Positions 35,785 to 38,959 of a DNA stretch of 64,000 bases are shown here, in pieces (position 1 is the first letter of the stretch; each line of letters begins with the position of its first letter). A program made the position numbers and the translations under genes. The notes beneath the pieces were generated by a model. The model ran no database searches. It was not told where the DNA came from and saw only the letters and a list, made by a program, of their open reading frames with translations. The stretch comes from Muribaculaceae bacterium Isolate-110 (HZI) (GTDB lineage: Bacteria; Bacteroidota; Bacteroidia; Bacteroidales; Muribaculaceae). The stretch lies in the NCBI GenBank assembly GCA_003762875.1, contig RIBL01000004.1, positions 62,001 to 126,000 of the forward strand, given 5' to 3'.

Positions 35785-36756
35785 TTGCATTCGCCAGTCA
35801 CAATAGTTATCCCGGTCTACAACCGCGCGCACACCATCGCGCGCACTCTGCGCAGTATCGATACGCAGACTCTGAGACCGGCTCATGTGATACTGGTCGA
35901 CAACAATTCATCCGACAGTTCAGTGGACGTGATGCGCGCCTGGGCCGACGGCAAGGACTATGTGACTCTACTGTCTCAGCCGCGGGCTGGAGCATGCGCC
36001 GCACGCAACCGCGGACTGGAATGTGTGACCACGGAGTGGACCATGTTTTTTGATTCCGACGACGTGATGGCACCGGAGCACGTCAGCGACTTCTCACGTG
36101 CCATCGACTCCAATCCGCAGGCCGATATAATCGGCCGCGATATCCTCACACGTTTTATCGACGGCTCCATCAGACGGCTATACTTCCTGACAGGGCGCGA
36201 CAACGCCATGTTTCATCACCTGTTCCGCGGCTGCCTGTCGACCCAACGCTATGTAGCCCGCACCTCGCTGTTCCGTGCCGTCGGAGCGTGGGACGAGAAC
36301 CTTAGCGGATGGGTCGATTACGAACTCGGCACCCGGCTGCTCATGCACACCTCAGCAATCCTGCGGCTCTCAGGCACGCCGACCGTCACCACTTTTCAGC
36401 AGGAAGAATCCATCACAGGCACCGGATTCAGCGCGCATCCCGAGCGATGGGAGCACTCGCTCGACACTATACGCGACCATTTCCTGTCACTGCCCGACTC
36501 CGACAACCGCCGACGCAGATGGCTCGACTGGCTTGACGCACGCAGCATGATACTCGCTGCAGCCTACGAGCGTGAAGCCCTCGAAAATACATCGCATGCC
36601 GACCGCGAAAACTATGCTGTCGCCCACTCTCTCTCGACCTCACTCTACGCCAAAGTAATGCAGCGCACCCACCATCCCCGCCGCCAGCGGCTCATCTATC
36701 TCCACAACCTCCATTTACGCCGCCTTACATGGCTCCTGGCCCAAAGCCTCCTGTAA
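35785..36756 (+). CDS. Family 2 glycosyltransferase
   Basis: A 323-aa cytoplasmic GT-A enzyme. The N-terminus is TIVIPVYNRAHTIARTL. NNSSD follows near residue 40, and RAGACAARNRG precedes the metal-binding DXD-type motif FFDSDDV near residue 93. The start is TTG 35785; no ATG is available before the first strand of the fold. It probably belongs to the gldKLMN transcript. T9SS cargo in Porphyromonas is fixed to a surface polysaccharide, so a role in making such a glycan is possible, but nothing in the sequence proves it. Confidence 0.88.
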   Translation: MHSPVTIVIPVYNRAHTIARTLRSIDTQTLRPAHVILVDNNSSDSSVDVMRAWADGKDYVTLLSQPRAGACAARNRGLECVTTEWTMFFDSDDVMAPEHVSDFSRAIDSNPQADIIGRDILTRFIDGSIRRLYFLTGRDNAMFHHLFRGCLSTQRYVARTSLFRAVGAWDENLSGWVDYELGTRLLMHTSAILRLSGTPTVTTFQQEESITGTGFSAHPERWEHSLDTIRDHFLSLPDSDNRRRRWLDWLDARSMILAAAYEREALENTSHADRENYAVAHSLSTSLYAKVMQRTHHPRRQRLIYLHNLHLRRLTWLLAQSLL

Positions 36757-36797
36757 ATAAGAGGGACTTCCGGTTTAATAGGGCGTTTATAACTTGT

Positions 36798-37581
36798 TTA
36801 ATAATCCATTAATATCGGCACACGGTGTTCTTCCGCAAAAGAGACAGCTTGGTATAGCATCGAATAGGCACATTGAGCCAGTTCCTCGGTACGGTATTTC
36901 TCTTTAGGCGTTTTGTCTGACCTGCGGATGAATCCCAAAAGGAGTTTCAGGCTCTTTTTGTTTTACCGGTATATAGTATTTGTCGTTTCTCCAAGAGTGT
37001 ATAGTGGCTTCATCGGCCTTCCATAGCTGCCGGTTTATATTTTCCAGTTCCCGTTTCAGAAGTGAGAGCGTAGATATTGCCCCCACAGTGCCTGCAGGAT
37101 ACTCAGCCACAAAAATAATATCATCCGGAATCGGCAGCCAGAGAGCTGTATCATAAAGCAATGAATTGGCTATTTTCTTCGACATAGCCTCTTTGACTAT
37201 CGGCTCGTCATAGGCATTCCACTTGCTTTCCACATATTCGGGCAACGGGCGATTCAGAGAGAGGCAAGCCTGCAACATCACCAATGCCCCGAAGGCCTCC
37301 CAATCGGGTTTGTCCGTATAATAGTCACATTCGGATGTTTCGTCCCATAACGGTGAAGGCTCCGGCATGTCGATGGTCACGGCGATATTGTCAATCCATT
37401 TGGTCACGGTAGTCCGGATATCCTCTATTTCCGCTTTATCCTCTACGGGTTTTATTTCATTCCCGTCACAGTCTGTCATTACGCACTTTTGTCCGTTTTC
37501 CTCCGCCATCCGCTGTACGATGGTTTTTCAGTTGCGGCTGTAATAGCGAGTCAATTTACCAGAATATATATCCAAGCCCAT
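36798..37581 (-). pseudogene. Broken gene of the MGLDIY family (nonsense mutation plus frameshift)
   Basis: The intact form would start at ATG 37581 with MGLDIYSGKLTRYYSRN, a start I recognise from a family of uncharacterised bacterial proteins. Codon 18 is TGA (37530-37528), where TGG for Trp is expected, because the frame continues as KTIVQRMAEENGQK. A second lesion lies near 36934-36936, where one extra base in a CCC run (plus strand) shifts the frame. The existing frame ends VRQNA at 36904, while the next frame continues coherently for 44 codons (FIRRSDKTPKEKY ... EEHRVPILMDY) to TAA at 36798. Repairing both lesions gives exactly 260 codons plus stop. A shorter product from ATG 37509 (201 aa) could still be made. 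The function of the family is unknown. Confidence 0.82.
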
Positions 37582-37588
37582 ATCGTGT

Positions 37589-37743
37589 AAATAAATAGCG
37601 ATGTAGAAAGGTATTGTACATCAGGATGTCGATATAATAATCATCACCCGACACTTCTATATGACACTGCCGCCCATGAAAGCGAATACGGCTCCCATTT
37701 CAACGAGAAATTTCTCCACATAATTGACAATCCAATCTCCGTC
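37589..37743 (-). pseudogene. Frameshifted fragment of a YhcG/DUF1016 PD-(D/E)XK nuclease
   Basis: Two frames together read DGDWIVNYVEKFLVEMG, then AVFAFMG, then after a 1-base shift RQCHIEVSGDDYYIDILMYN and TFLHRYLF. This matches the C-terminal core of DUF1016 (FLxELGxGFxFxGRQxxLExxGxDYYIDLLFYH). The shift is near 37673-37675, where one base of a C run (plus strand) seems missing. The expected IELK catalytic motif that should follow is absent, because the homology stops at about 37589. The left end meets the sufS stop codon exactly (37742-37744). This is a remnant with no complete domain. Confidence 0.75.
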
Positions 37744-38959
37744 ACTCCAATATAGCGGTGACACGCTTGAGGGCGGCGATAAATGCGTCACACTCCTCGA
37801 GTGTGTTGTAGACGGCAAACGAGGCACGTACCACGCCCTCAACACCGAGCACATGCATCAGCGGCTGGGCACAGTGATGGCCCGTGCGTACCTCCACACC
37901 GAGCTTGTCGAGCAGCATACCCATATCGTAATGATGGATATTGCCGACAAGAAACGAGATAATGGCACATTTGCCCGGGGCCTGTCCGAATATCCTCATG
38001 CCGGGTATCTCCCCAAGCATGCGGCGCGTAGTGTAGTCAAGCAGTTCATGCTCATGGGCGGCTATCTGCTCTACGCCGGTCTCATCCATGAAATCTATGG
38101 CCTTGGCCAACGCCGAGATGCCGATGAAATCGGGCGTGCCGGCCTCAAATTTATAGGGTAGTTCGGCATACGTGGTGCGTTCAAACGACACCGACTCGAT
38201 CATCTCGCCGCCCCCTTGGTAGGGAGGCATCTTTTCGAGCCATTTCTCCTTACCGTAGAGCACCCCCACGCCCGTCGGGCCATACATCTTATGGGCCGAG
38301 AACGCATAGAAGTCCGCGTCGATGTCGCGCACGTCAACCGGTATGTGGGGTGCGGCCTGGGCTCCGTCCACCACCACAGGCACTCCGTGGCCGTGGGCTA
38401 TGGCTGTCATCTCCTTGACGGGATTGACGGTGCCGAGCACGTTGGAGGCATGACACACGCTCACAAGACGCGTGCGCTCGTTAAACATCTCACGATAGGC
38501 GTCCATGTCGAGTTCGCCGACGGCATTGACAGGCACCACGCGTATGGTAAATCCGATGCGGTCGCGCAGCAACTGCCATGGCACGATATTGGCGTGATGC
38601 TCCATCTCAGTGAGTATCAACTCATCACCCTCGCCAAGCATCAAGCCGCCAAACGAGGAAGCCACAAGATTGAGAGCCTCGGTGGTGCCGCGCGTGAATA
38701 TAACCTCGGAAACCGAGGCTGCGTTGATCCACTCCTTCACCCGTCGGCGTGCAGCCTCCTGGAGCTCGGTAGCCTCCTGCGAGAGCGTGTGCACGCCACG
38801 GTGCACATTGGCCTTGGTCGTGGTGTATCCGTCGACCACAGCCTTGACCACCGTGTCGGGGGTCTGTGATGTGGCTGTATTGTCGAGATAGACCAGCGGT
38901 CGGTTATATAGTTTTCGTTCGAGTATCGGAAACCCGGAGCGAATCTTCTCAATATCCAT
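37742..38959 (-). CDS. sufS: Cysteine desulfurase SufS
   Basis: A 405-aa PLP enzyme that takes sulfur from cysteine for Fe-S cluster assembly. The PLP Lys is in FSAHKMYGPTGVG and the active-site Cys is in VRTGHHCAQPLM near residue 365. Other marks are YLDNTATSQTP and HHANIVPW. It is the last gene of sufC-sufD-sufS on the minus strand, 4 bases after sufD. Downstream lies the decayed islet. Confidence 0.97.
   Translation of the reverse strand: MDIEKIRSGFPILERKLYNRPLVYLDNTATSQTPDTVVKAVVDGYTTTKANVHRGVHTLSQEATELQEAARRRVKEWINAASVSEVIFTRGTTEALNLVASSFGGLMLGEGDELILTEMEHHANIVPWQLLRDRIGFTIRVVPVNAVGELDMDAYREMFNERTRLVSVCHASNVLGTVNPVKEMTAIAHGHGVPVVVDGAQAAPHIPVDVRDIDADFYAFSAHKMYGPTGVGVLYGKEKWLEKMPPYQGGGEMIESVSFERTTYAELPYKFEAGTPDFIGISALAKAIDFMDETGVEQIAAHEHELLDYTTRRMLGEIPGMRIFGQAPGKCAIISFLVGNIHHYDMGMLLDKLGVEVRTGHHCAQPLMHVLGVEGVVRASFAVYNTLEECDAFIAALKRVTAILE

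Follow-up and report, generated by a model that had tools for sequence, protein, structure and literature searches.

In the available portions of Zhang et al. (2012; PMC3482391), heterogeneous polyimmunity loci have been described that in several cases adjoin recombinases, SUKH, SuFu and Imm32 are named as immunity families, and firmicute proteins are reported to carry up to 10 immunity domains; the terms DUF4261, DUF4304, DUF4253 and UPF0167 are absent from those portions. Orphan immunity genes of the rAID type are the other close parallel, and the accessible part of the rAID paper makes no mention of a pseudogene, frameshift, decay or Muribaculaceae. The locus compared here with these systems lies in the genome of Muribaculaceae bacterium Isolate-110 (HZI), in a stretch of 64,000 nucleotides (contig RIBL01000004.1, positions 62,001 to 126,000) that is called the window. 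It holds a broken gene of the MGLDIY family, which on balance is probably an orphan immunity gene against the toxins of rival bacteria, acquired horizontally and inactivated not long ago; we infer the immunity role from the gene context of a clostridial homologue. The features of the locus, in window coordinates, are:

35785-36756, plus strand: glycosyltransferase-like gene, left flank of the slot (named from the look of the sequence)
36757-37741, no strand: insertion slot of 985 bp between the convergent sufS and glycosyltransferase-like genes (from the gaps in relatives)
36798-37581, minus strand: MGLDIY-family pseudogene (tblastn with the Duncaniella muris homologue, both frames)
36904-37509, minus strand: mechanical open reading frame (ORF) of 201 aa, lacking the conserved first 24 and last 49 or so homologous residues (ORF list, comparison with homologues)
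36945-36951, minus strand: approximate switch of homology from frame one to frame two (translations against the homologue alignment, by eye)
37528-37530, minus strand: in-frame TGA at codon 18, Trp in 10/10 intact homologues (sequence and alignment)
37592-37737, minus strand: remnant of a YhcG/DUF1016-type PDDEXK nuclease gene, truncated, spread over two frames and immediately upstream of the pseudogene (PF06250 and frame searches)
37742-38959, minus strand: sufS, right flank of the slot, ending in TGA (named from the appearance of the sequence and from neighbouring SUF genes)

Read on the minus strand, the gene opens with ATG at 37581 and continues as MGLDIYSGKLTRYYSRN to the TGA at 37530-37528, past which the same frame reopens and runs to a stop at 36904-36906. 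A second frame is open as far as a TAA at 36798-36800, and the intact length is about 260 aa. The nearest named homologue comes from Duncaniella muris DSM 103720 (L009:5929-6708, 260 aa, 75-77% protein identity). In tblastn its residues 1-217 matched frame one at 77% identity, with one stop, and its residues 216-260 matched frame two at 87%. Since one protein is homologous to both frames, the feature is a broken gene and not a chance resemblance. The first-pass annotation had read the start, the TGA, the frame beyond it and the second frame open to 36798 from the letters, and all are present. It had also described a 201-aa protein with false ends, which was recovered as the mechanical ORF; a gene caller would report this ORF in place of the gene of about 260 aa. 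Its frame change near the 3' end stands as well, but not the place given for it, the run at 36934-36936. Intact homologues read KEPKLLLGF or KEPKLILGF at this site, and frame two already reads KLLLGFIRR near 36945-36951, like the intact copies, and matches them from about 36947 (by eye), so that the switch lies about four codons earlier than that run.

Ten intact homologues were aligned, namely the eight intact Muribaculaceae copies and those on the records L012 and L011. They are 257-261 aa long and have a highly conserved start, MGLDIYxGxLxRYY...WK. All ten have Trp at residue 18 as well as L258 and Y260, and nine have D259; the tryptophan and an ILLDY-like end had both been predicted for full-length homologues. 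The window copy retains 58 of the 62 residues that are invariant across the ten, the four exceptions being the stop at W18, Q24R, L182I and L258M, with M at residue 258. In leave-one-out comparisons, intact members break 0 to 6 of 62-68 invariant columns. Comparison of the window codons with D. muris gave dN 0.131 and dS 1.0, a ratio of 0.13, and intact Muribaculaceae pairs gave ratios of 0.055-0.185 where dS was computable, many pairs being saturated. With this ratio and the 58 residues kept, the copy looks recently broken, or broken in the assembly alone. Low dN/dS cannot tell recent loss from sequence error, and the feature is a recent pseudogene or a sequence error. Recent loss with the rest well preserved, as proposed from the sequence at the outset, fits these values; the earlier observation is confirmed and its interpretation supported.

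The MGLDIY protein found nothing above the curated cut-off in Pfam, where the rows below it (DUF5940 at 0.0068, WHEP-TRS, MutS_IV and others) were taken as chance, and no match in NCBIfam, PHROGs or PADLOC. The PDB gave one row by sequence (E 0.83) and none by profile, thus no usable relative, and AlphaFold predictions for three sequences were of low confidence (pLDDT 35.4). A literature search for MGLDIY found no paper, and the family is, as the first-pass annotation had it, an uncharacterised one. The host genome (3.4 Mb, 100 contigs, estimated 99.99% complete) contains no second copy at E <= 1. In genome samples that overlap one another, matches were found in 7/198 relatives and 11/397 genomes of the family, own genome included in both, in 3/393 genomes of the order, one of them weak (E 5e-4, five stops), and in 1/296 genomes of the phylum, the own genome. 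A search of genome contigs gave two loci. The phage and plasmid collections gave one record each, the plasmid record being recovered with two other queries, and three pattern scans of viral contigs gave 10, 71 and 6 stretches, none confirmed as MGLDIY. The genome that carries the D. muris homologue (G012, taken to be D. muris, 100% match) ranked in the same genus as the window genome, and the host is therefore taken to be a Duncaniella commensal of the gut.

The pseudogene lies between two genes whose names we assume from the look of their sequences and, for sufS, also from its SUF neighbours. sufS is present in 25/27 genus genomes, own included. At 8 of the 24 other sufS loci the glycosyltransferase gene was visible in the fetched flank and the gap could be counted; one locus with a weak partial match (L055, 65 residues, 32%) was kept out. 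In seven of these eight relatives the gap is about 27-96 bp between alignment ends, against 985 bp in the window. In the eighth, G010 (L043), it is 786 bp, and an unrelated thioredoxin-like ORF occupies it (L043:2716-3501), so that the slot accepts different cargo. The G012 slot is nearly empty (about 36 bp), and the MGLDIY copy of that genome sits elsewhere between other neighbours. The GC content of the pseudogene is 0.463 versus 0.562 for the window, and its GC3 is 0.53, with 0.70 for sufS and 0.74 for sufD. Compared with D. muris it has a dS of about 1.0, versus 2.1 for sufS, a value near saturation; the lower dS suggests that the gene copies separated later than the genomes. Between G012 and G019 the dS of the gene and that of sufS agree (0.25 and 0.21). 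The closest genomes by SufS (G009, G013 and G010) have no MGLDIY copy, two of the three being only 86% complete. By these sequence comparisons, the pseudogene is best regarded as foreign cargo in the sufS-glycosyltransferase slot. On slot gap, composition and dS, vertical descent alongside the core genome is a less likely history than transfer, the sufS value of about 2 being near saturation.

The second relic in the slot matches PF06250 (YhcG_C) at 37592-37696 with E 5.8e-6 and 27.3 bits, below the cut-off of 32.5. Its two frames were searched apart against 30 fetched loci and L015, and both find intact YhcG genes in Duncaniella genomes. The longer piece is most similar (54% over 35 residues) to a YhcG gene in G005 (L015), which lies 0.7 kb from an intact MGLDIY gene. 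These two cases, which differ in orientation, do no more than suggest that the YhcG and MGLDIY genes travelled together.

Among the 11 carriers in the 397 family genomes, eight copies are intact and three are broken, by three routes: point lesions, insertion and truncation. The G003 copy is split between two contigs (L018 and L019), one half covering residues 1-110 and the other 109-260. Both halves run up to a shared inverted repeat end, and 5-7 bp of the target seem to be repeated (by eye). The 18-bp repeat end occurs at five places in G003, all five near a scaffold gap or contig end, which is the pattern expected of a multi-copy insertion sequence; an exact search for it found none in the window's genome or G012. 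The G003 element itself, insertion-sequence-like as judged from its repeat ends, has its body in assembly gaps. In G596 (L037), only residues of about 202-260 are left, adjoining a variant of the same repeat end. The neighbours of the Muribaculaceae copies include YhcG nuclease, HTH, RhuM, GNAT, GrpB, radical-SAM, UDG and PLD-like genes and others. They recur only at a shared site (L013/L014), in the pair L015/L036 and in two weak cases (L015/L017, 39%; L034/L036, 22%). The blocks L015:8551-10928 and L036:6865-10132, from two Muribaculaceae genera, have the same flanking radical-SAM-type gene (90%) and share CarboxypepD_reg-like genes (69-77%), a common cargo block. No immunity family was found in the 23 proteins scanned, at E limits of 0.1 and 0.001, of the 86 ORFs around the eight intact Muribaculaceae copies.

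Distant homologues, 43% identical to the D. muris protein, are found on L012, which is the Subdoligranulum variabile record OY725843 (filed among plasmids and typed as non-mobilizable), and on L011 (MT835765, phage by label only). The L012 homologue lies on the same strand as a 1437-aa protein with SUKH, DUF4261, SUFU, DUF7832 and DUF4253, and as further genes of the UPF0167, Imm32, SMI1_KNR4, DUF4304, SF0329 and DUF4261 types, with a few family-less ORFs between them. We take DUF4261, DUF4253, DUF4304 and DUF7832 to be immunity-like, the first two and the last because they are fused with SUKH and SUFU in that one protein; a literature search found nothing on DUF4261 as an immunity protein. 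The UPF0167 gene scored 183.6 of 300 bits against the NCBIfam colicin-E2-tolerance family CbrC, below the cut-off. Beyond the array lie genes for a WYL regulator, M78-peptidase-like, PemK-type and HTH_17 proteins and a phage-type integrase. The stretch L012:2-11612 is thus a polyimmunity-type array on an integrase-bearing record that is without annotation in the collection. L011 shares with L012 two neighbour types, UPF0167 and DUF4261; the two are related elements, and the array context therefore counts about once. The association with one array lineage is moderate support for immunity. The MGLDIY protein itself matched none of the Imm, SUKH or SuFu families above the curated cut-off, and a location in a run of immunity genes was seen for the L012 homologue, not in the window slot nor among the Muribaculaceae neighbours scanned. 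In the scanned neighbours, several of which are without a family, no polymorphic toxin could be recognised; orphan immunity genes need none. The type VI marker TssD had no match in 27 genomes, nor in 14 controls, and its absence from the controls makes this result uninformative.

That the lesions are sequencing or assembly errors, and that the cell itself has an unbroken gene, appears unlikely. The assembly is a draft in 100 contigs, the frame change falls within a stretch of short single-base runs, and dN/dS and invariant residues resemble those of a working gene. Such errors would, however, have to account for two separate lesions of different kinds within 0.8 kb of a genome estimated to be almost wholly complete, a second gene remnant adjoins the pseudogene, and two other carriers were broken by unrelated routes. 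Far less probable still is a product made by recoding, through TGA readthrough and ribosomal frameshifting, or a working shortened protein of 201 aa. Both frames are still well preserved, as such readings would have it, but the adjacent sufS ends in TGA and relatives match it over residues 1-404/405, two unlinked recoding events would be needed, and the ten aligned homologues require neither; the short ORF lacks the conserved start as well as the conserved end. Recoding was rejected on the sufS stop, the two events needed and the intact homologues.

A stronger competitor, which we still think doubtful, accepts the pseudogene and holds that the family is other mobile cargo, with phage-defence or stress functions for example, captured by the clostridial array by chance. 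The scanned neighbours in Muribaculaceae are non-immunity genes such as YhcG nuclease, HTH, RhuM, GNAT and GrpB, and a YhcG remnant adjoins the window copy too. The family has, however, no PADLOC or PHROGs match, its neighbours rarely recur, and its sole long multi-gene context is an immunity array. Under the orphan immunity reading that we prefer, an intact protein of the family, about 260 aa long, would reside in the cytoplasm, bind the toxin domain that a rival bacterium delivers and so neutralise it. One clostridial member sits within a polyimmunity array whose record also bears an integrase, and in Muribaculaceae the gene would move as small cargo, retained while the matching toxin is about and lost afterwards, presumably when the threat has vanished. 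It may also be, at somewhat less than even odds, that MGLDIY is an unnamed immunity family which small cargo has carried between Clostridia and Muribaculaceae, its quick acquisition and the repeated breakage (3/11 carriers) recording the comings and goings of one toxin type among gut bacteria.

That a commensal should carry one broken gene is nothing unusual, and the event seen here is the recent loss of a gene that was probably horizontally acquired. What is gained is a candidate function for a family that has no name, together with evidence of repeated copy loss; cargo acquired horizontally, further broken carriers and the toxin-immunity context of one homologue go beyond the first-pass annotation. 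If the family does confer immunity, it would add an unrecognised marker of warfare by toxins in the gut, the broken copies would be evidence that antibacterial defences are shed as well as gained, and gene callers would be turning such relics into short proteins with false ends.

Compared with known systems, the window copy resembles the D. muris homologue in sequence and length and differs from it in that the latter is intact and has other neighbours. It may be likened to the rAID orphan immunity genes in being immunity-like, toxin-less as far as recognised, horizontally acquired and from gut Bacteroidales, a likeness that we infer. It differs in that its slot holds a single gene with no array and no recombinase, and the abstract of the rAID paper deals with SUKH-domain proteins; in place of a rAID-type immunity array with a recombinase, the pseudogene and the YhcG remnant alone were recognised in the 985 bp. 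From the polyimmunity loci, as described in the available part of PMC3482391, the family differs in that it matches no named Imm family and its Muribaculaceae copies lie outside arrays (23/86 ORFs scanned). It is like them in its L012 homologue, which stands among SUKH, SuFu, Imm32 and DUF genes, with an integrase further on.
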